A stretch of DNA of 38,085 nt, taken from the NCBI RefSeq assembly GCF_009696175.1, contig NZ_VUMM01000019.1, positions 1 through 38,085 on the forward strand, written 5' to 3'. The notes under the pieces are model-generated. The model saw nothing but the letters and a program-made list of their open reading frames with translations. It was not told where the DNA came from and searched no databases. The first letter of the stretch is position 1. The number at the start of each line of letters is the position of its first letter. Position numbers and translations under genes: made by a program. This stretch comes from Floccifex porci (GTDB lineage: Bacteria > Bacillota_I > Bacilli_A > Erysipelotrichales > Erysipelotrichaceae). Shown here piece by piece: positions 11,560-22,573 of the stretch.

Positions 11560-12801
11560 ATGTGGAAGTATTATAGTAAAACACATCTAAAAATAATTGG
11601 AATTACATTTGCGATAGGACTTGCGATTATGATGGTTACATTTTCCCAGAGTCAGGGAATTTATGCCGAAATTTTTCCCGAAGAAATTGTAGATTTTATG
11701 TATTCAAATGTTGTGGTCACTTATCTGTTGGGTGGTTTTTCTTTAGCTGGTTTAGCTAATGCGATATTATTGATTCAATATATTATGAAAAAATGGGCTT
11801 TTGGGATTTTTATTATTCTTGCGGTTCTGATTTTATCTCCGGATGTAATATCTGTTGTAGGTGTTTTCAGTCTGATTCCGAGTGTCATTTTTTCAATTTA
11901 TGGATTATATACTTTAAATAAATCAAATAAAGAAATCCTTCAAAAAGAAGGGATGACTTCTGAAAAGGATGTTTTAGATATTTATAAACAAAGACATAAT
12001 CTTCTGGAAGAATATAAGTCATTTGCTCAGATGTGTCGAAAAAATGTTCAAAAAATATCAGCTATTTATGCTTTAGGAGTCATTGCGGTTATTTTTGTTT
12101 TATTATTCATGAGCAATCTGATTTTGATTGTGATAGCGATTTTCTTCTTTACATATACATTTAATATGCTGGCAAGATACCGGGTTTCCAGTTTTTTACC
12201 AATCACAAGCTTATTATATGAAAAATGCGATCCTGAAGCGTGTGCATCTGCAATTCTTTATTATTCTATGCAGAATAATCGTTTTAATCTAACAAATCAA
12301 ACGTTATTTGCACAATGTCTTCTTTATATGGATGATGCAGACCTCGCAAAGAAAGCACTAGCAACTTTCCCTTTAAAAGATGAAGCAAGTATTCTTTCTT
12401 ATTATTCCATTATGGCTTATGTATATTATCTTTTAAAAGATGAGGATAAATTAAATGAGTGTAAACAGGAAGCTGGAAAAGTTCGTTTAAATATGGGAGC
12501 TGTGGGAGTGAATATTCAATCTCAGGATATCGCATCCATTCAGAATAAAATTGATCTGATGAATGGCGACTTTAATACATGTCGTAAATATTATTTACAA
12601 GCTTTCCAAAGAGCTCAATTTCCATTTCAGAAAGTGGATGCAGCTTATTATATTGGATTGATTTCCTTTGTAGAAGAAGATTATGTCGTTGCAAAAACGT
12701 ATCTGGAAAAAGTTATTCAGATAGGAAATAAGATGCATTTTGTATCAAAAGCAGAACATTATCTTTCAAAAATTAATGATATGAATTTAGAAGAATCATA
12801 G
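11560..12801 (+). CDS. Multi-pass membrane protein with a C-terminal TPR-like domain
   Basis: No family recognised. 413 residues. The N-terminal part has about four hydrophobic segments (residues 10-30, 55-75, 82-97, 98-117), then a charged helical linker (about 120-160), and two more membrane segments at about 165-205. The last 200 residues are soluble alpha-helices resembling tetratricopeptide repeats, with Ala/Leu/Tyr spacing as in AAYYIGLISFVEEDYVVAKTY. This suggests a membrane-tethered scaffold; no enzyme motif was seen. A TATAAT at 11537-11542 is a possible -10, without a convincing -35. Its stop codon sits in a hairpin shared with the convergent gene. Confidence 0.7.
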   Translation: MWKYYSKTHLKIIGITFAIGLAIMMVTFSQSQGIYAEIFPEEIVDFMYSNVVVTYLLGGFSLAGLANAILLIQYIMKKWAFGIFIILAVLILSPDVISVVGVFSLIPSVIFSIYGLYTLNKSNKEILQKEGMTSEKDVLDIYKQRHNLLEEYKSFAQMCRKNVQKISAIYALGVIAVIFVLLFMSNLILIVIAIFFFTYTFNMLARYRVSSFLPITSLLYEKCDPEACASAILYYSMQNNRFNLTNQTLFAQCLLYMDDADLAKKALATFPLKDEASILSYYSIMAYVYYLLKDEDKLNECKQEAGKVRLNMGAVGVNIQSQDIASIQNKIDLMNGDFNTCRKYYLQAFQRAQFPFQKVDAAYYIGLISFVEEDYVVAKTYLEKVIQIGNKMHFVSKAEHYLSKINDMNLEES

Positions 12802-12816
12802 TGGATTCTTCTTTTT
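12789..12816. terminator. Bidirectional terminator between two membrane protein genes
   Basis: AGAAGAATC (12789-12797) pairs with GATTCTTCT (12804-12812) and is followed by T. The coding regions overlap by 6 bases here (12796-12801), so both stop codons fall in the hairpin. Confidence 0.75.
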
Positions 12817-13335
12817 ATTTGTCCAGATAAACAAGAATATATTCATTCCATATGTAAAAAAGATTTCACAGATTGATGTGATATGATCTAAAACCAGCAT
12901 AATAAATAGACTGATCATTAGAATCATTAAAAAAATAAAACATTCTTTTTGATATATAAAATAATATTTTGAAAAAATATATATCCATTCTATGATAAAA
13001 CCTATAATACAGATTCCTGCAATCCATACATGTAAATTATTCGTCCAGTTTTTTAAGCCATCCTGGTATGGAAATACGATTGAAATAGTCATACCAATAT
13101 GAATTAAAGCATGAAGAAATGAATGATAAGGAAGCTTACAGGAATCAAAAATAATCTTTGAATAATAATACAGACCAAAAACAGAACTGATTGTCCATAA
13201 ACATAAATAAAAAGGATGACCTAAGACATTTCCTATGTAGGTCTGATTATAAACAAATACATCTGTATAATAAAATGCCATGAAGTTTACGAGTAATTCA
13301 ATCAATAAAATATGTACCCATTTAAAATATTTCAT
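12796..13335 (-). CDS. Integral membrane protein of unknown function
   Basis: No family recognised. 179 residues, nearly all hydrophobic, with about five or six membrane helices rich in Ile, Phe and Tyr, and a short basic C-terminus (TNKKKNPL). Several His and Trp residues lie at helix ends (KWVHILL, FLHALIHIG, NLHVWIAG), which could point to a small-ligand or metal role, but this is speculation. It is divergent from the type VII-like operon, with only about 70 bases between the starts, so it shares the operon's control region. Convergent with the TPR membrane protein. Confidence 0.6.
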   Translation of the reverse strand: MKYFKWVHILLIELLVNFMAFYYTDVFVYNQTYIGNVLGHPFYLCLWTISSVFGLYYYSKIIFDSCKLPYHSFLHALIHIGMTISIVFPYQDGLKNWTNNLHVWIAGICIIGFIIEWIYIFSKYYFIYQKECFIFLMILMISLFIMLVLDHITSICEIFFTYGMNIFLFIWTNKKKNPL

Positions 13336-13404: not shown

Positions 13405-14355
13405 ATGCAAGATTGGATACATGAACTGTATAGAGATTCAAACAATATTCTTGTTGAGTTAAATAAAAAAGAATGTCTCGACATTGAAATCTTTCAAAGA
13501 ATGGCAAATGATTGTTTCTGTCTGCAATGTGTTCTGCAGGATAAAGAAAAGGCAAGAATTCTTTACTCGATTCAAAACAAAGTATCTTTACATGATTTTA
13601 TAAGCCAATATGTATTTGAAAAAGAAGAAGGATACCAGTTTCTGATTCATTTAATGGAAAGTGCAATTGCCATCAATCGAAATAAACCGGTCTATTTTCA
13701 TCCAAAAGCTATATTTTTAGATGAACATGGAGAAAATTTTTATTTTATGGTGATTCCAATTTCTTTACAGGAATGGATGTTTACCACAAATCAGATTAAA
13801 GAATGGATTGAATATCTTTATAAAAATATACAAACAACCACTGCCTTCGAAATACCAGGATATTTGATTCGTTTTCTAAACTGTAAAGAATTTTCTCTTC
13901 CTAATCTGATACTGGGTTTAAAGAATCTTCAGCAGTTGTACCATCCAAAACGATTTTCTTTCTTGAAAAAGAAAAAAGAATCTTCTTTTCGTGTACAGGA
14001 AGCCATTCATCCACTTTATATTGAAGAAATAAAAGAAGAAGTATCGGATAATCAGACTCGAATTTTAGGCATGACAATGGAAGAGAAGGCATATGTAGAA
14101 ATACATCGTAAGATGTATGAATTAAGTGAAACGACTTTAATTGGACGATCTTTTGGATGTGACATTCAGCTTAAAGAAGAAGAGGTATCTTTAACGCATT
14201 GTAAAATTGTATGTGAGAATCATCGTTATTATATACAGGATTTAAAAAGTTCAAATGGGACCTTTTTAAATGGAAAACGTGTACAAAGAAAAATGCGTCT
14301 GAAGGATGGTATGGAAATTCAAATTGCGAATGTTAAATTTGTATTTCATCAATGA
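13405..14355 (+). CDS. FHA-domain protein of the type VII-like locus (DUF6382 + FHA)
   Basis: Cytoplasmic, 316 residues, first gene of the operon. Residues 1-180 look like the DUF6382 domain found in front of FHA domains in clostridial proteins. The pattern SLHDFIS, then FHPKAIFLDE, then FYFMVIPI also resembles the cut-down kinase fold of EssB proteins. A basic linker (186-200) leads to a C-terminal FHA domain (about 230-316) with the phosphothreonine-binding residues Gly247-Arg248-Ser249, Ser262-x-x-His265 and SSNGT (282-286). It should bind a phosphorylated partner. The kinase-like protein encoded next (4-base ATGA overlap) is the obvious candidate to modify that partner. GGAGGG precedes the ATG. 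Confidence 0.85.
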   Translation: MQDWIHELYRDSNNILVELNKKECLDIEIFQRMANDCFCLQCVLQDKEKARILYSIQNKVSLHDFISQYVFEKEEGYQFLIHLMESAIAINRNKPVYFHPKAIFLDEHGENFYFMVIPISLQEWMFTTNQIKEWIEYLYKNIQTTTAFEIPGYLIRFLNCKEFSLPNLILGLKNLQQLYHPKRFSFLKKKKESSFRVQEAIHPLYIEEIKEEVSDNQTRILGMTMEEKAYVEIHRKMYELSETTLIGRSFGCDIQLKEEEVSLTHCKIVCENHRYYIQDLKSSNGTFLNGKRVQRKMRLKDGMEIQIANVKFVFHQ

Positions 14356-15707
14356 TGAATAATCGATATGTTTCTATCTGTACACTAAAAGTAAATGATT
14401 TTTCTCGCTGTGATATCGTTCAGGATCAATTTACAGGAAGAAACTGTATCAGTAAAACAGTTCTTTTAAATTCCGATCCCGTTTATATTCACCAGTTTCG
14501 TATGGAAATTCAGGTATTATCTTTGATACAGCATCCTTTTATGCCTCAAATTATAGATGTATATGAAACAAAGGATTCTCTTGTACTGATTGAAAATAAG
14601 ATTCCTGGAATCTCTTTAAATCAATGGAAACAGGAACATCCAGTATTAAAATATTTAATTCGAGATTATTTGCTGATACAGGCTATGAATCGATTTGAAT
14701 ATTTACATTCTCTTGATATTTTATACATTGATATCAAAGAAGAAAATTTCATGATACATCGTAATCATCTCTATTTAATTGATTTTAATTCCTGCACTTA
14801 CAATCATTCCAGTTATGTTTCTTTTGCATCCTATTCTAATGCATCTCCAGAATTAAAAAACACAGAATCCAAAGATAGAACCAGTGATATTTATGCGTTT
14901 GGTACATTCATGAAAACGTTCTATTTTACGAATCCTTTCATCATACGCACTTGTTTAAATAAAGAATCAAAAAAACGATTTTCATCTTTTTCAAGTTTAA
15001 AAATAGCCTTTATTATAAGAAAATTCATAACAATTCTAATTTCTATATTTCTGTCTGCTATACTTTTATTTGTTGTGAATCAAAGAAAGGAGGACATTCT
15101 TTTACAGGCTTATTTAAAAGATCCTCAAAATCAGATTTTGTTTCTAAATGCTTATGAGAAAGATTTAAAGAAACAGAAAGGAAATCAGACTGAAAAAATT
15201 CAAATGAATTTATACCAGTGGATCGAAAAAGGATTTATAAAAGACTGTTTAAAAAATTCAAAGATCAGTTACTATTTAATGAAACAGGCGATTCTTTCTC
15301 AAAATGATATGTACTGTCAATATTTTCTGGAAAACATACCAGAAGATATTTTAAATCAATATCCAGAAACCGTTTCTTTTATGAGACAGATCAAAAGGTT
15401 ATCCGCATCTTTTGCCCAGAAATATTTAGTGTATGTATATGAAAGTAAAGACATTGATTTATTGTCTGTTTATATGTCGTTACTCATTTCCAGTCAGATT
15501 ATTCTGGATGATTGTGAACTTCTATATAAGATCAATTGTGAGATTAAAGAAGATCAGGTGGAATTTGAACCATGTGCCATTCAATATCTGCAATATTGTC
15601 TGTTCTTAATAAGTGAAGATCATCCATGCCCTCCCATTCCTGGTTTATATCAGAAATCAGATCAATTTCAGATACACCAATTAATTCAATACATCGAAAG
15701 GATATAA
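14352..15707 (+). CDS. Membrane-anchored Ser/Thr kinase-like protein with EssB topology
   Basis: 451 residues. Residues 1-215 have a protein-kinase plan: a candidate lysine Lys35, helix-C Glu52, a catalytic loop IDIKEEN (Asp127, Lys129, Asn132), the metal-binding Asp144 in IDFN, a SPE element (165-167), SDIYAFG (Asp179) and a closing Arg209. Deviations are the loss of the Gly-rich loop, HRD read as YID and DFG read as DFN, so activity is uncertain. One membrane helix follows (about 221-243), then a 205-residue helical region expected outside the cell. Size and order match EssB/YukC, a pseudokinase of the classical type VII system, but more catalytic residues are kept here. Translation is coupled to the FHA gene; no separate binding site is seen. 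Confidence 0.8.
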   Translation: MMNNRYVSICTLKVNDFSRCDIVQDQFTGRNCISKTVLLNSDPVYIHQFRMEIQVLSLIQHPFMPQIIDVYETKDSLVLIENKIPGISLNQWKQEHPVLKYLIRDYLLIQAMNRFEYLHSLDILYIDIKEENFMIHRNHLYLIDFNSCTYNHSSYVSFASYSNASPELKNTESKDRTSDIYAFGTFMKTFYFTNPFIIRTCLNKESKKRFSSFSSLKIAFIIRKFITILISIFLSAILLFVVNQRKEDILLQAYLKDPQNQILFLNAYEKDLKKQKGNQTEKIQMNLYQWIEKGFIKDCLKNSKISYYLMKQAILSQNDMYCQYFLENIPEDILNQYPETVSFMRQIKRLSASFAQKYLVYVYESKDIDLLSVYMSLLISSQIILDDCELLYKINCEIKEDQVEFEPCAIQYLQYCLFLISEDHPCPPIPGLYQKSDQFQIHQLIQYIERI

Positions 15708-15710
15708 ATT

Positions 15711-17399
15711 ATGTTACCTCCTATTAATCCATTTATAACTTTTATTAATGACAATCAGACCATAACCATACAGTGCAATCCGATTGTAGACTGTTCGCAA
15801 AGCACTTTTATCTATGAACAGGAAGAATTGGATTCTTTAAGTTTTACTTTACAGAATGAAGGAAGTACTTATCTTGTATATTGCTTAAAAGACAAAGATG
15901 GAAATATATTAGAAGAAAATCAAAAAGAGTTTTTTCTGGATACTACAGCCCCAGAAATTAAGGTATCTATAGATGATTTTTATATCGATTCTGAATTTGT
16001 ATTATGGGATGAATGTACCCTGCAGATTGATATAGAAGATGCTTCGAAGGCAGAAACAAAATTGTATGTAGATGGTCAAAGTGTAGATTTTCAAAATGAA
16101 TTGTTTGTGACAAAAGAAAATAAGGAAATATGTATTGAATGTTGTGATGAATATAACAATAAAAGTAAAAAGATTCTGAAAATTGATTCACAGCCAATAT
16201 CCATTACAAGCAATATTCAAACGGAATATACGACACAAAGTGAAATTGTTTTCGATTCCAGCATCGAATGGGATTTCTTAGAGATTGAAGAATATCTGGA
16301 TGGAGAAAAAATCGATACGATAAAACAGGGGACAACCTTTGATAAGACAGGTTTTTATCAATTTATTCTTAGAGATACAAGATATCCTTATTTAGTAAAA
16401 GAAGTACAGTCCTTTACTTTTACAAACCAGCTTCCCTCTGTTGTTTTGCCAGATTCTTATGTGACAAATCAGAACCAGATTTTACAGTATGAAATAAATT
16501 GTCCTTATTTTAAAAGTGGAAACCTTATGGTGAATGGACAATATTATTCATTAGAAGATACGATATCATTTGAAGCCAATGATGATGAAAAAAGAATCTA
16601 TCAGCTGCAGATAACAGTGCAGGATCTGTTTGATCAGACGGTATTTGAACAAAGAGAGTATGTAATTGATCGTCGACATTTGAATTTTGATTTCTTTTTC
16701 AACAATACAAGTGTAGAAAAAGAACAGATTTATTTTACTACCTGTATAAATTATGACATTCAATTAAATAAAGAAGCAGAAGTAACAGTAAAACAATGGA
16801 TCGAAAATCAGCCAATCTATACAGATCTGTATACATCCTTACAATTATTAAAACCTAATCAGACATTGGTCTGTCAAATCTGTTTGGAGGATGGATTGAA
16901 TGAACCTGTAAACAGACAATATATTTTTTATAAATTGAATGAAGTTATAGAAGTCAGTGAAACAGAATCAAAACCACTTAAACGAATCTGGAGCGTAAAA
17001 GAGGACAAAGTTCTTCTAAAAGAAGAAAAAGAAGAAATTATGCCTGTATGCAAGATTCTTGTGAATGGCCAAGAAACAGATAAAGCTTCTTTTTTCGATA
17101 CCATTCAAATTGTATTTTTAAAGGATCCATCCAATTATCTGAAGATGGTTAAGATCAATGGAAAAGAAATATCAATGGACAAGTTTAAAACGAATTCATT
17201 ATCTCAATTTGTTTATGAGTTTAAGGCGATTCAGCCTTCCTATAAAATAAATGTGATAATGGAAAACTCTATGAAAAAAGAAAATCAAAAAGATAGTGAA
17301 ATAAAAGTAAGTCAAAAATGGTTAATGATATTTATCATTCCTATATTGTTTCTAATAAAAAAACTTTATGAAAAGAATTCAAATATATCATCAGAATAA
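15711..17399 (+). CDS. Ig-like repeat protein with a C-terminal membrane anchor
   Basis: 562 residues of repeated beta-strand modules resembling bacterial Ig-like folds, for example FFLDTTAPEI followed by a Val/Asp-rich strand pattern, repeated with LPSVVLPDSYVTNQ and other units. One hydrophobic helix near residues 536-551 is followed by KKLYEK. There is no signal peptide, and none is possible: a stop codon (15705-15707) lies just upstream in frame. The protein is rich in Cys (CNPIVDC, CIECC, CQIC). It is therefore either a cytoplasm-facing tail-anchored protein or exported by an unusual route. It sits where EsaA or EssA might be expected, yet resembles neither. Gap to the kinase gene is 3 bases. 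Role unknown. Confidence 0.7.
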   Translation: MLPPINPFITFINDNQTITIQCNPIVDCSQSTFIYEQEELDSLSFTLQNEGSTYLVYCLKDKDGNILEENQKEFFLDTTAPEIKVSIDDFYIDSEFVLWDECTLQIDIEDASKAETKLYVDGQSVDFQNELFVTKENKEICIECCDEYNNKSKKILKIDSQPISITSNIQTEYTTQSEIVFDSSIEWDFLEIEEYLDGEKIDTIKQGTTFDKTGFYQFILRDTRYPYLVKEVQSFTFTNQLPSVVLPDSYVTNQNQILQYEINCPYFKSGNLMVNGQYYSLEDTISFEANDDEKRIYQLQITVQDLFDQTVFEQREYVIDRRHLNFDFFFNNTSVEKEQIYFTTCINYDIQLNKEAEVTVKQWIENQPIYTDLYTSLQLLKPNQTLVCQICLEDGLNEPVNRQYIFYKLNEVIEVSETESKPLKRIWSVKEDKVLLKEEKEEIMPVCKILVNGQETDKASFFDTIQIVFLKDPSNYLKMVKINGKEISMDKFKTNSLSQFVYEFKAIQPSYKINVIMENSMKKENQKDSEIKVSQKWLMIFIIPILFLIKKLYEKNSNISSE

Positions 17400-20300
17400 A
17401 TGTGAATGTATATGTTTTGAAAAACAGATTGAATATGCGAATTTTCGACTGATAGAACAGGAAAATAAAGTCTATATTTGTTTAGACAATCAAAAAATGA
17501 TCTGTCTTAAACCTGTAAGATATAAAGAATATGTATTTATTCCTGTACCCATTCGAACATTTTCTATCTGTACTATTAAGAATCAGTTTATCGTTGGAAG
17601 AGATAAAAATTGCAATTGTCAGATTAATGATTTAGATATATCCAGTATTCATTTTTCAATTGAAAAAAAAGAAGATCATTTCTATCTGAAAGATGAGAAA
17701 AGTACAAATGGTGTCTATGTAAATGGATCAAAAGTAAATCAAATTCGTTTAAAAGATGGAGACGAGATATGGATCACAAAATATCAATTCTTTTATTTTG
17801 GATGTTATCTAATGGTTCCTATAGAACAGAAAAAGGAAGAATTAAAAAGTCATTGTATGCAAATAGAACCAGTAAAAAAAGAAAGAAAACAGGTTCTAAA
17901 AATTGAAAGAAAGCCAATTGTACCAGAATCATATATATGGGAAAACGCACCCGTTAAGACACCTTTATTTCAATCGATTGGTTCTTCCTTTATGATTTTA
18001 ACATCTTCTTTACTATCGTTTCTTATTTTGTATTTTATGCATCCAGAACAAAAGAATCAGCTGATTGCCACATTTTTTATGTCTTGTTCCATGGCTGTTG
18101 GATTTCTGTTTTTTGGTTTATACAATCGTAAACAATCGTTTCAGAATTCAATGAAACAGATTCAATTTAAAGAACACCAATATTTTGATTATTTAAATAT
18201 GTTATATGAATCGATAAAAGAAAAAGAACAGAAAATCAATGTTCTTTTAGAAGAACAGTTTAATGATTTTATGTCTCATCAATATCAATTTGATGATGTA
18301 TTAGTCGATTATTCCCATCAAAAATATTCTTATTTTCAATTGAAAGAGCCTCCTTTTCAATATTTAAATTCTGATATGGATAAAAATATAAAAAAATGGA
18401 TTCAAATGCATGAAATCCGTGTGCAGATACCCATTTATCTGAAACAGATCAAAGCCCTCCAGTTAACAAATTCTATAAATGGATGGATGCAGGTACTATG
18501 CGAATGTCAAAACGATCTGAAATATGTACTGGTTGGAAATTCATTTAAAGAGTGTTATTTTTTATCTCATCCAAAATGTATGGAAGAAGGATATCGTTTA
18601 TGGATATTTGATGAAAAAAGTAAACAGCTTTTTCAGAAGCGAAAAAAGGAAAATCAGAATTATTTATATATTTTTGATTCAACCATCTGCATAGATACAG
18701 TCTATAAACCTTCTTTCCATTATCAGTTCAATTATTCAATTTATCAGAAAGATTGTTTATCCACAGGAACTGAAAAAAATATTTCTTTTAAGGAAAGAAA
18801 GAATACGGTTCAGCTGGAAGTGGAATTGGGTATGGATGAACAAGGGGAAAAAATTATTCTAAATCTGGATGAAACAAAAGATGGAGTACATGGACTGATT
18901 GCTGGAACAACAGGATCTGGAAAGTCAGAATTGTTGTATACGATTCTGATACAGCTGGCGATGAATAACAGTTGTTCACTTTTTCAATTTGTATTGATTG
19001 ATTTTAAAGGAGGAGCTTTTTCCCAGTCATTTGAAGACTTTCCTCATTGTGTGGCAACTATTACCAATTTAGACCGTGATTTAGATCGCTTTCTGGTTTT
19101 GATGAATTGCCTTATAGATACTCGTCAGAAACAATTAAAACATGCTGGTGTGAATCATATTAATGTTTACAATTTAAAAAAGAATCGTAAAATGAGTCAT
19201 TTGATGATTGTGATCGATGAATTTGCTCAATTAAAAGAACAAGCAAGGCAAGCTATGGCATCTATAAAGGAAATGGCACGTATTGGAAGATCTTTAGGAA
19301 TTCATCTGATTTTATCAACCCAGAAACCAATGGGAATTATTGATGAACAGATTTGGGCCAATACTTCCTTTCATATCTGTATGAAAGTGAATTCGAAACA
19401 GGATTCTATGGAAGTTCTGCACAATGATTTTGCGTATCATTTAAAAGAACCTGGACAATTTATCCTGCAAAGACAGTCTTGTGTAAAGGGGCATAGTTTT
19501 TATTTAAATGAAAAAGAAATGATATATCAGTTTGTGAATGATTATGATGAAGTTTTATATGAAAAAAAAGAAACAGAAACAAAGTTTGAACGTCTAAAAC
19601 AGAAAATATTGTCCTATCCTGAATCAAGAGTGGAACTGTTCTTACCAGTTTTATCTAAGTATCCTTTTCAAAATGAACTTCTGGTCTATGAAGATATAAA
19701 AGATGTGAAACAAATTCCCTTTGATCTGTATCATGGTCAATCTTTATATATACTAACGGATGATTTTTCCTGGATTCCACAAATTTTCTTTTATTTTAAA
19801 GATCCTGTATTTACTTATAAACTATCCATCCCTTATACAGATCGAGATTTTAAAGATATGAAGGCTTTATTTGAATGTACTTTTATTAAAGAACCATTCA
19901 CATTGATCGTTCTGGCAGATTCAGAATTTTTAGAAAATGTCGAATCCTTTCAGAAAAAGAATATACGTTTGATTGTACTGACAAAAAATCCTATTCATTT
20001 CAATACAGGAGTGAATCGATTTAAATGCTGCTGGAATGTTCATTCTAATGAATATATAAAAACTTTTTTTACTAAGTCACATCTATGCAATGAAAACTGG
20101 ATCGAAATCCAGAATGAATTGTATCCATTTCAGTTTCAGAAAAGAGACCCTTTCTATCAGAAAAAGAAAAAAGTTCATTTTGAATCTCATGTATATCTGG
20201 GAATTTGTCAAAAAGAGTGGGTGTATTGGGATACTAGAAGAAAACTGTTGATTGTATATGCGCAAAAGAGTTTAGAGAAAGATATAAAAGACAAGATAAA

Positions 20301-20514
20301 GGATTGGCCTTGTCTAGATAAAATTCAAATGATTCATATTCCATCATCCATAGCTTTTTTTCAGTCCCAGGAATATATTTTGAATCAGTATGAATGGGAT
20401 ATATTATGGTTTGGTCCAGGATACCTGGAATATGGATTCTATATAAAAAGAAAGAATATACCTGCTTCTTTTCTTATGTTCTGGGATGAAAGAAAAGCTT
20501 ATAGTCTGGAGTGA
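17368..20514 (+). CDS. essC: EssC-like FtsK/SpoIIIE ATPase, reduced form
   Basis: The motor of the type VII-like system, 1048 residues against about 1,480 for EssC. Order: a beta-rich N-terminus, an FHA domain at about 66-145 (Gly77-Arg78, Ser92-x-x-His95, STNGVYVNG), two membrane helices (205-224, 232-251), a long helical linker, then one FtsK/SpoIIIE ATPase with Walker A GTTGSGKS (513-520), LIDFKGGAF, Walker B VIDE (615-618), ARIGRSLGIHL and LSTQKP. The remaining 343 residues hold weak relics at best (LLIVYAQKSLEKDIKDKI), with no second Walker A. Classical EssC has two further ATPase modules. The gene overlaps the previous one by 32 bases and has no clear ribosome binding site. Confidence 0.9.
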   Translation: MKRIQIYHQNKCECICFEKQIEYANFRLIEQENKVYICLDNQKMICLKPVRYKEYVFIPVPIRTFSICTIKNQFIVGRDKNCNCQINDLDISSIHFSIEKKEDHFYLKDEKSTNGVYVNGSKVNQIRLKDGDEIWITKYQFFYFGCYLMVPIEQKKEELKSHCMQIEPVKKERKQVLKIERKPIVPESYIWENAPVKTPLFQSIGSSFMILTSSLLSFLILYFMHPEQKNQLIATFFMSCSMAVGFLFFGLYNRKQSFQNSMKQIQFKEHQYFDYLNMLYESIKEKEQKINVLLEEQFNDFMSHQYQFDDVLVDYSHQKYSYFQLKEPPFQYLNSDMDKNIKKWIQMHEIRVQIPIYLKQIKALQLTNSINGWMQVLCECQNDLKYVLVGNSFKECYFLSHPKCMEEGYRLWIFDEKSKQLFQKRKKENQNYLYIFDSTICIDTVYKPSFHYQFNYSIYQKDCLSTGTEKNISFKERKNTVQLEVELGMDEQGEKIILNLDETKDGVHGLIAGTTGSGKSELLYTILIQLAMNNSCSLFQFVLIDFKGGAFSQSFEDFPHCVATITNLDRDLDRFLVLMNCLIDTRQKQLKHAGVNHINVYNLKKNRKMSHLMIVIDEFAQLKEQARQAMASIKEMARIGRSLGIHLILSTQKPMGIIDEQIWANTSFHICMKVNSKQDSMEVLHNDFAYHLKEPGQFILQRQSCVKGHSFYLNEKEMIYQFVNDYDEVLYEKKETETKFERLKQKILSYPESRVELFLPVLSKYPFQNELLVYEDIKDVKQIPFDLYHGQSLYILTDDFSWIPQIFFYFKDPVFTYKLSIPYTDRDFKDMKALFECTFIKEPFTLIVLADSEFLENVESFQKKNIRLIVLTKNPIHFNTGVNRFKCCWNVHSNEYIKTFFTKSHLCNENWIEIQNELYPFQFQKRDPFYQKKKKVHFESHVYLGICQKEWVYWDTRRKLLIVYAQKSLEKDIKDKIKDWPCLDKIQMIHIPSSIAFFQSQEYILNQYEWDILWFGPGYLEYGFYIKRKNIPASFLMFWDERKAYSLE

Positions 20515-20518
20515 TAAT

Positions 20519-20755
20519 ATGAAAAAATATTTATTACATATTAAAGTACTGCCTCATCCTTATGTTCATGATATATGGATGAATAGTCAGGGAAATGTAG
20601 GAAGTTTTATCAAAGATATTTCGGGAAAATGGTTATGCGAAAGATATACGTTTGATCATTTCCTGTTTCATGTAGAGAACCGTAGAATATTAGACAATCA
20701 GAAAACCTGGCAAGAAAACTTTGTTTGTACAGGAGATCATCTTATTTTAGTATAG
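20519..20755 (+). CDS. YukD/EsaB-like ubiquitin-fold protein
   Basis: 78 residues, the size of YukD/EsaB (about 80). The end is the best match: a strand (FHVENRRIL), a loop, and then ENFVCTGDHLILV, as in the GDRL-type ending of the ubiquitin-like YukD fold. In classical systems this small cytoplasmic protein is required for secretion and sits beside EssC, as here. The ATG at 20519 is chosen because GGAG lies 8 bases upstream, straddling the end of the EssC gene; an earlier in-frame codon at 20486 would place the start inside it. Sequence similarity is weak, so the call rests on size, ending and location. Confidence 0.7.
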   Translation: MKKYLLHIKVLPHPYVHDIWMNSQGNVGSFIKDISGKWLCERYTFDHFLFHVENRRILDNQKTWQENFVCTGDHLILV

Positions 20756-20769
20756 GAGAATAAATAATT

Positions 20770-21063
20770 ATGAGAATAAGTGTAAATTATGAACAATTAA
20801 TGCAGCAAAGTCAATGTTTATATGTTAAAGCAGATGAGTATCATCAGATTATCGAATCCATTCAACAAAGAATTCATGGAATGGCATCTATCTGGCAGGG
20901 AGAAGACCATTTAATGTTTGTATCTAAATTTGATGAACTATATCCAAAATTAAACCAGATGACACAGGTATTAGAAGAATATGCTTCTTTATTACAGAAA
21001 AGTGCATCGATGTATCAGCAAATTCAACAGGATCGCATTGCCCAGGCTCGTATGCTGGGATAG
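20770..21063 (+). CDS. WXG100-family (EsxA-like) protein
   Basis: 97 residues forming a helix-turn-helix hairpin, with the turn motif Trp-Gln-Gly in ASIWQGEDHLMF. It opens with the usual ISVNYEQLMQQS pattern (compare IKVTPEQL in Esx proteins). Members are secreted as dimers and are both substrate and essential partner of the type VII ATPase. There is no YxxxD/E tail in register: the C-terminus has Tyr followed by QQIQQD. The signal may come from its partner, the next gene. GGAG lies upstream and the gap to the ubiquitin-like gene is 14 bases. Confidence 0.92.
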   Translation: MRISVNYEQLMQQSQCLYVKADEYHQIIESIQQRIHGMASIWQGEDHLMFVSKFDELYPKLNQMTQVLEEYASLLQKSASMYQQIQQDRIAQARMLG

Positions 21064-21074
21064 AGAGGATAATT

Positions 21075-21359
21075 ATGTTACAGATTTCATATGAAGATGT
21101 AAGTCAGTATGCGAATCAGATGAGTGCTTTAAAATTACAGATGATGGATACATTTTCGCAAATTCAAATGCAGATGAATTCAATAATGGATATATGGAAT
21201 TCACCGGCTTCTATAAAATTTCAGGAAGAGTTTCAATTACTGGTTCCTGCGTTTTCCTCATTTGTAGAAATAATGGAATTGTATGCACAATTCTTATCAC
21301 AGACGGCATTCACTTATAAAGAAAATGAAGAGATGTTAACAAGTGCTATCGGATCCTAG
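21075..21359 (+). CDS. Second WXG100-type protein with a WNS turn
   Basis: 94 residues, the same helical hairpin as its neighbour. The turn reads IWNSPASIKF, so Gly of the WXG motif is Ser. The C-terminal part carries Tyr-Lys-Glu-Asn-Glu, which fits the YxxxD/E export signal that the first WXG100 protein lacks. Two unequal WXG100 proteins, one with the turn Gly and one with the tail signal, suggest a heterodimer as in EsxA-EsxB, but this is inference. AGAGGA precedes the ATG. Its last codons overlap a short helical gene in another frame. Confidence 0.85.
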   Translation: MLQISYEDVSQYANQMSALKLQMMDTFSQIQMQMNSIMDIWNSPASIKFQEEFQLLVPAFSSFVEIMELYAQFLSQTAFTYKENEEMLTSAIGS

Positions 21360-21522
21360 AATAACGTATTATCAGGAATTATTGTACACCCTCACACAGA
21401 TTAAAAATAATCTTTCTTCTTTAACAGGAAGTTTTCAGGAAGAAGAAATTCTCCTTTCCAGAATCAATCAACTGGCAGCTCTGATTTATTTACAGATCGA
21501 GGAAGTTCAACATGAAGATTGA
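21343..21522 (+). CDS. Small helical protein (59 aa) between the WXG100 and substrate genes
   Basis: Found by reading the 152-base gap between two genes. A GTG start at 21343 opens a frame that runs to TGA at 21520-21522. It overlaps the WXG100 gene by 17 bases and the next gene by 11, the tight packing seen throughout the operon. The product begins VLSDPRITYYQELLYTLTQI and is predicted to be two amphipathic helices rich in Gln, Leu and Glu. Such small helical partners lie beside toxin-like substrates in many type VII loci, where they act as targeting factors; that role is inferred. The binding site (GAAGAGA, 10 bases away) is poor and no relative was recognised. Confidence 0.55.
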   Translation: MLSDPRITYYQELLYTLTQIKNNLSSLTGSFQEEEILLSRINQLAALIYLQIEEVQHED

Positions 21523-22291
21523 AACAAATCTGATTAGACAAATGGCAAATCAGCTGCTATCACAAATTCAGTCCCTTTCTTTTAATAATTCACAATTGTT
21601 TACAAATCATCAGAAGATAATAAATGATATATATAATCTATCAAATTATTTTAGTGTGTCCTGTAATCGATGGGAAGAAAACGAAGATGTATTGGTTCAA
21701 ACATCTAAAGGAAAATTGAATTATTCTCATAATGAAACAGGAAATGCATTAGGGTGGTTATTTAAGAAAAACAATTCTCTAACTTTTTCACAGACAATTC
21801 AATATCAATATGGAAATGCAGCTCTTTCCTATAAAGCATTAAAAGGCAATATTAGTGCTTTAAAATTGTATGCAAATGGAAAAATCCAATGTCGATTATG
21901 GAAAGACAAACAATTTTATCCGTCTTTACAAATTGTGGCAAAAGCAGATGCTTCCTTATTGTCCGCAAATGCTAATTTACGTTTAGGAAATGATAAGATC
22001 TATGCCAGGGCAAATGCGAATGGCTGGCTGGGGGTCTGTTATGCCAATGCCAAAGCAGTATTAAATCCAGGGGAACAAAGTCTTTCTTTAGGGGCAGGTG
22101 CATCTTTTCTAAAAGGATCGGTGAGCTGTTCTTTCCATTTTTTATCAGCCAGTATCACGCTAAGTGGAACCGGGTCCATTGGAAGTGTGGAAGCCAATTT
22201 AGAATACAGTCATAAAAATAGAGAATGGGAGTTTGGCTCTAAGCTGGGATTTATTTGTGGATTGGGATTTAAAGTAAAAGTCAATTATTAG
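21512..22291 (+). CDS. Candidate type VII substrate, glycine/alanine-rich C-terminal domain
   Basis: 259 residues. Residues 1-55 are helical (METN-type opening, LIRQMANQLLSQIQSL), like the targeting part of LXG-type substrates but shorter. From about residue 75 the protein is built of short beta-strand repeats rich in Ala, Gly, Ser and Asn, such as AKADASLLSANANLRLG, ARANANGWLG and LGAGASFLKGSVS, ending GFICGLGFKVKVNY. Similar runs occur as pre-toxin linkers in polymorphic toxins, but no toxin or catalytic motif follows. It has no signal peptide. GAGGAA lies 7 bases before the ATG. Either a toxin-less effector, a surface or pore-like protein, or a fragment of a larger substrate. Confidence 0.6.
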   Translation: MKIETNLIRQMANQLLSQIQSLSFNNSQLFTNHQKIINDIYNLSNYFSVSCNRWEENEDVLVQTSKGKLNYSHNETGNALGWLFKKNNSLTFSQTIQYQYGNAALSYKALKGNISALKLYANGKIQCRLWKDKQFYPSLQIVAKADASLLSANANLRLGNDKIYARANANGWLGVCYANAKAVLNPGEQSLSLGAGASFLKGSVSCSFHFLSASITLSGTGSIGSVEANLEYSHKNREWEFGSKLGFICGLGFKVKVNY

Positions 22292-22300
22292 GAGGTTAAG

Positions 22301-22573
22301 ATGAAAGAATATTTACCCATTGGAAGCGTTGTAACTTTAAAAAATACAAAGAAAAGAATTATGATCGTGGGGCGTTTACAGAATCTGATTCATCAGGATG
22401 AAGTTTACGATTATGCCGCTGTACTGTATCCGGAAGGATTGATTGATAGTGAACATTTTTATTTATTTAATCAGGAAGATATAGACTGTTTATTTTACAT
22501 CGGCCTTCAGGATAATGAAGAATTTAATTTCCGTTATACTTTACTGGAAAAATCAAAGGAGCTTAAAAAATAA
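22301..22573 (+). CDS. DUF4176 family protein, last gene of the type VII-like operon
   Basis: 90 residues. The opening LPIGSVVTLKNTKKRIMIVGR, then YDYAAVLYPEGLIDSEHFYLF and NQEDIDCLFYIG, is the characteristic DUF4176 pattern. The family is found next to WXG100 and type VII genes in streptococci and other Bacillota; its function is unknown, with accessory or immunity roles proposed. Small beta-rich cytoplasmic protein without signal or membrane segment. AGGAGG precedes the ATG. Its stop lies in a terminator shared with the convergent PrsA-like gene, which marks the end of the locus. Confidence 0.85.
   Translation: MKEYLPIGSVVTLKNTKKRIMIVGRLQNLIHQDEVYDYAAVLYPEGLIDSEHFYLFNQEDIDCLFYIGLQDNEEFNFRYTLLEKSKELKK

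Follow-up and report, generated by a model that had tools for sequence, protein, structure and literature searches.

A putative reduced TseD kinase with a conserved catalytic core in a type VII secretion locus of Floccifex porci

The window, i.e., the whole stretch of 38,085 nucleotides that was analyzed, includes an operon encoding, in this order, an FHA protein, a kinase, an envelope protein, an FtsK/EssC-type ATPase with an FHA domain, a TseB-like protein, two WXG100 proteins, and proteins of 259 and 90 amino acids (Table 1). The T7SSe set consists of TseJ (DUF6382 and FHA), TseD (kinase), TseI (Ig-like), TseC, TseB, TseA, TseA2, TseF (PPM phosphatase), TseH and TseK; marks of membership are a ubiquitin-like TseB, a TseI with a Sec signal and a C-terminal membrane helix, and TseH and TseK that are small one-helix proteins (Garrett, Higginson and Palmer 2024, PMC11217815). 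From this set, the window has the TseC ATPase with its FHA domain, TseA and TseA2 within one operon, and the place of TseJ in that operon is taken by an FHA protein. The gene order TseJ-TseD-TseI-TseC-TseB-TseA-TseA2 recurs across the related genomes recovered.

Table 1. Coordinates, strand and basis of the features assigned in and around the operon
Feature	Coordinates	Strand	Basis
Polytopic membrane protein, divergently transcribed	12796..13335	-	
TseJ: DUF6382-like N-terminus and FHA, phosphothreonine-binding residues intact	13405..14355	+	Pfam FHA E=5e-21; DUF6382 E=4.3e-5, under curated cut-off; motif alignment
Reduced TseD-type membrane kinase, 451 aa	14352..15707	+	ORF; Pfam Pkinase E=5e-21; TseD slot in operon; tree
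Cytosolic protein-kinase-fold domain, ~residues 5-215	14364..14996	+	Pfam; model match to solved kinases
Degenerate beta1-beta2 hairpin at expected Gly-rich loop site, residues 12-22, LKVNDFSRCDI	14385..14417	+	Alignment to PrkC and full TseD
Lys35 codon (VAIK lysine)	14454..14456	+	Invariant in 19/19 reduced TseD
Glu52 codon (alphaC glutamate)	14505..14507	+	Invariant in 19/19 reduced TseD
Catalytic loop YIDIKEEN (Asp127, Lys129, Asn132)	14724..14747	+	Asp 18/19, Lys 18/19, Asn 16/19
Mg-binding motif DFN (Asp144, Asn146)	14781..14789	+	Asp 18/19, Asn 18/19
Single membrane helix, residues 225-243	15024..15080	+	Hydropathy; predicted helix 213-247
Predicted extracytoplasmic helical domain, residues 245-451	15084..15704	+	AlphaFold2 (pLDDT 73.5), without confident match to known structures
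TseI-like envelope protein, C-terminal membrane helix	15711..17399	+	Position and homology; Pfam only weak
TseC: EssC-type FtsK ATPase, one FHA, phosphothreonine-binding residues intact	17368..20514	+	FtsK_SpoIIIE E=2e-24; FHA E=1e-17; motif alignment; tree
TseB-like small protein, start codon picked by inspection	20519..20755	+	Conserved position and homology
TseA WXG100 protein	20770..21063	+	PF06013 E=1.3e-11
TseA2 WXG100 protein	21075..21359	+	PF06013 E=1.1e-8
59-aa helical ORF	21343..21522	+	
259-aa protein	21512..22291	+	
90-aa protein	22301..22573	+	

The counterpart of TseJ in the full locus L083 passes the curated DUF6382 cut-off. No confident Ig match was obtained with Pfam for the TseI-like protein of the window, and Ig-like domains are present in the orthologous slot of L083. 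On inspection, a signal peptide was not evident in this protein, nor was one in several reduced relatives; the N-terminus is strongly hydrophobic in L083, L084 and L085. The window operon includes no TseF/PP2C phosphatase gene, and the three PP2C genes of the genome are located on other contigs. The genome also encodes its own PrkC, elsewhere than in the operon. No small plus-strand ORF with a clear membrane helix that could represent TseH or TseK was found in the operon, where the TseD and TseI genes abut. By its gene content the locus is T7SSe-type in a reduced form, or perhaps T7SSj.

Other genes accompany the system. A polytopic membrane protein of about 180 amino acids without a Pfam family is transcribed divergently next to TseJ, and its homologues occupy the equivalent place beside 25 full and reduced loci; it is a candidate unrecognized partner of the system. 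The 59-amino acid ORF lies between TseA2 and the gene for the 259-amino acid protein, a place where many related loci have ORFs of similar size. Full loci, like reduced ones, have the 259- and 90-amino acid proteins at the end of the operon. By inspection, the 259-amino acid protein begins with a helical stretch and becomes repetitive toward its C-terminus; it is a possible substrate.

Pfam, hydropathy and structure prediction agree on the layout described in the initial annotation of the kinase gene, a kinase fold, then a single membrane helix and an outer domain predicted to be helical. The Pfam Pkinase match covers residues 25-198 of the 451 amino acids. The hydropathy peak that marks the membrane helix reaches 2.66, and the runner-up stretch, at 1.48, is below membrane-helix strength. 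A model of the whole protein, built on three sequences and of middling confidence (pLDDT 70.5), matched solved kinases with Z scores of about 15-16 across residues 14-230. The comparison with PknB-type kinases that had been suggested bore out the fold, as the predicted model gave a VIA Z of about 15 to PknB chains. When the outer domain was modelled alone, only weak matches to TPR/ARM-like helical repeats were found, none of them confident.

The active site was then compared across an alignment of 19 reduced TseD sequences (Table 1). Asp127, Lys129, Asn132, Asp144, Asp179 and Arg209 are all found where the initial annotation had placed them, with YID at residues 125-127 and DFN at 144-146; its list, correct in every entry, omitted the VAIK lysine (Lys35) and the alphaC glutamate (Glu52), both of which are present. 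Of the 210 alignment columns, 14 are conserved in 18 or all 19 of the sequences, and five of the six positions in the Lys/Glu/Asp/Lys/Asn/Asp catalytic set are among these 14, which exceeds chance (hypergeometric p about 4e-6, uncorrected for relatedness). Lys35 and Glu52 are also invariant in a nine-sequence set whose identity to the window protein is 22-46%. The catalytic set is shared with Hanks-type kinases such as PrkC and PknB, but the protein differs from these in the missing Gly-rich loop, YID for HRD, DFN for DFG, a shorter C-lobe and another outer domain. The absence of the loop had been noted correctly: the three loop glycines of PrkC face non-glycines in 19/19, 19/19 and 18/19 of the relatives (glycines in 0, 0 and 1). 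Since the loop is gone and the hairpin at its site is even shortened in some members (G003, G024 and G231), the ATP phosphates would not be clasped in the usual way. The C-lobe shortening had already begun in complete TseD relative to PrkC and is carried further in the window type, where Asp179 and Arg209 are spaced by 31 residues, compared with 43-51 in complete TseD and 65 in PrkC.

Phylogenetic analysis of the kinase domain placed 21 reduced sequences in one clade (support 100/100) inside TseD and apart from PrkC, and a TseC tree gave the same split between reduced and full loci with support 100. When 316 genomes from the order were scanned, the reduced form turned up in 23 of them, from 10 genera of one family, and a class-wide sample yielded none outside that family. 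The reduced and full TseD kinase domains aligned in hhalign with 99.9% probability. Operon order, profile match and tree together identify the window protein, by its sequence, as TseD, the kinase of T7SSe-type type VII secretion. It shares with TseD of T7SSe (also TsdD and TsjD; PMC11217815) the N-terminal cytosolic kinase, the membrane helix, the helical outer domain and the operon partners TseJ, TseI, TseC, TseB and two WXG100 proteins. The differences are the lost Gly-rich loop, DFG fixed as DFN, the shortened C-lobe, a smaller outer domain, and an operon that lacks TseF, TseH and TseK; the loop, DFN, C-lobe and TseF traits are clade-wide. What appears to be new here is a reduced variant of the already known TseD with a conserved catalytic core.

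Complete TseD proteins, with the Gly loop LGSGGMGEVW, AMK, YLDLKPDN and DFG, are encoded in L083, L085 and L116-L118, which belong to other genera of the same family, and in each of these loci a PP2C phosphatase gene lies between TseJ and TseD. Loss of the phosphatase was considered and rejected as a one-to-one marker of kinase reduction; in L084 and L123, TseD is complete and the locus lacks a phosphatase gene. The initial annotation had pointed to YID in place of HRD, but as a sign of decay this did not hold: YID is best read as inherited or neutral because complete TseD proteins, in which the Gly loop and DFG are present, also have YLD or YID at this site, the exceptions being L123 and L125 with YRD. 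Variation of other kinds was seen as well. In L131 and L132 (genus g115), the TseD gene is broken just past the activation segment, with the remainder on a second ORF in L132, and L129 (G415:C89) has a tandem of four kinase genes coding for about 590-610 amino acids each.

The protein had originally been described as EssB-like and perhaps as an active or recently inactivated ancestor-like form. The likeness to EssB/YukC of T7SSb (PDB 4ann, 2ynq, 6z0f and 9qks) is real as far as layout is concerned: both have a kinase fold in the cytosol, a single membrane helix and an outer part, helical in EssB/YukC and predicted to be so here, and both are encoded close to an FHA-bearing, EssC-type FtsK ATPase. 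Nonetheless, membership in the EssB/YukC family found no support. PF10140 was unmatched in the window genome, in eight relatives with the reduced kinase and in 22 further TseD-bearing genomes; hhalign against YukC gave probabilities of 0.2% for reduced and 2.2% for full TseD; and PDB sequence searches revealed no relation. EssB/YukC was also absent among the matches listed for the kinase-domain and outer-domain models, a result still compatible with a shared fold. YukC does not bind ATP and lacks key motifs, and the FHA domains of T7SSb have lost the phosphothreonine-binding residues (PMC9600267); in S. aureus EssB all three catalytic motifs are missing (PMC12599244). In contrast, the window protein keeps the VAIK lysine, the catalytic aspartate and the DFG aspartate, all lost in EssB/YukC, and the window FHA domains keep their phosphothreonine-binding residues. 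None of the genomes searched had YukC together with TseD, a weak point in favor of an EssB/YukC identity because YukC is rare (3/60 of the order); the same small counts led us to reject mutual exclusion as a sign of functional replacement. Both the kinase and the TseC trees place the reduction inside TseD as a derived trait, which speaks against a state ancestral to EssB. It is thus very unlikely that the protein is a divergent member of EssB/YukC or resembles an ancestor of EssB. On these comparisons, its likeness to EssB is confined to the layout, and most of its kinase active site is preserved.

Decay of the gene seems, if anything, even more improbable. Motifs are partly lost, one member is dead, and the copy in G231 has stop codons near a contig end. 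Yet the state is common to the whole long-branched clade, and dN/dS between close pairs is 0.12-0.17 (about 0.14), alike for the kinase and outer domains. Because of this conservation, the branch lengths and support of the clade, and the low dN/dS, the reduced state is taken to be old and under purifying selection rather than a recent inactivation. A non-catalytic scaffold deserves more weight, although we hold it to be doubtful: TseD would be an EssB-like hub that transfers no phosphate and binds the FHA domain of the ATPase independently of phosphorylation, its kept residues being structural or serving nucleotide-dependent stability. The clade-wide loss of the Gly loop, DFN for DFG and the shortened C-lobe fit such a role. 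So does the persistence of the TseD of L082 (G293), clearly a dead kinase from its sequence, which reads HMGIQLED and NFK and has lost Asp127, Lys129, Asn132 and Asp144 with the gene retained. EssB/YukC moreover needs no ATP for its function, and its binding to FHA does not depend on phosphorylation (PMC9600267). Against it, Asp127 and Lys129, needless for a mere scaffold, are kept in 18 of the 19 sequences, YukC/EssB differ at these positions (by eye), and the phosphothreonine-binding residues are retained in the window FHA domains. A bolder proposal, which strikes us as rather unlikely, is that reduced TseD proteins function as kinases despite the missing Gly-rich loop, and that the series from full TseD with a phosphatase through the reduced form to the dead one of G293 replays the route from a regulatory kinase to an EssB-type pseudokinase hub of a secretion system.

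The interpretation that we favor, with moderate confidence, is that the window protein is a reduced TseD acting as an ATP-Mg-binding, possibly still catalytic hub together with the FHA domains of TseJ and TseC. Reduction across the clade removed the Gly-rich loop, fixed DFN, cut the C-lobe and left the operon without a phosphatase gene, with the residues that position ATP, Mg and the catalytic base retained. The kinase domain would bind ATP-Mg via Lys35-Glu52, Asn132 and Asp144 and would probably phosphorylate itself or a neighboring subunit slowly on Ser/Thr. The resulting phosphothreonine would be read by the TseJ and TseC FHA domains, and TseD would therefore act as a hub between the ATPase and the envelope part, a position that EssB occupies in T7SSb. 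The PrkC and the PP2C phosphatases encoded elsewhere in the genome could supply or remove the phosphate. FHA integrity was not accepted as proof of TseD activity, as the TseJ FHA residues are intact even beside the dead L082 kinase. In L073 and L078 (genus g3), the phosphothreonine-binding residues are gone from the FHA domain of TseC but present in that of TseJ, and TseD keeps its own residues.

Type VII systems center on a kinase (T7SSc, d, e and j) or on a pseudokinase (EssB in T7SSb). A missing Gly or HRD motif is the wrong ground for annotating proteins such as the one described here as EssB or pseudokinases. With complete, reduced and dead versions of one subunit in orthologous operons, ATP use and the dependence on phosphatase and FHA domains become directly comparable. 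Reduced TseD would be a naturally occurring step between an active kinase and the dead scaffolds of the better-known secretion systems, and may bear on how a type VII kinase could become a pseudokinase hub, or the reverse.
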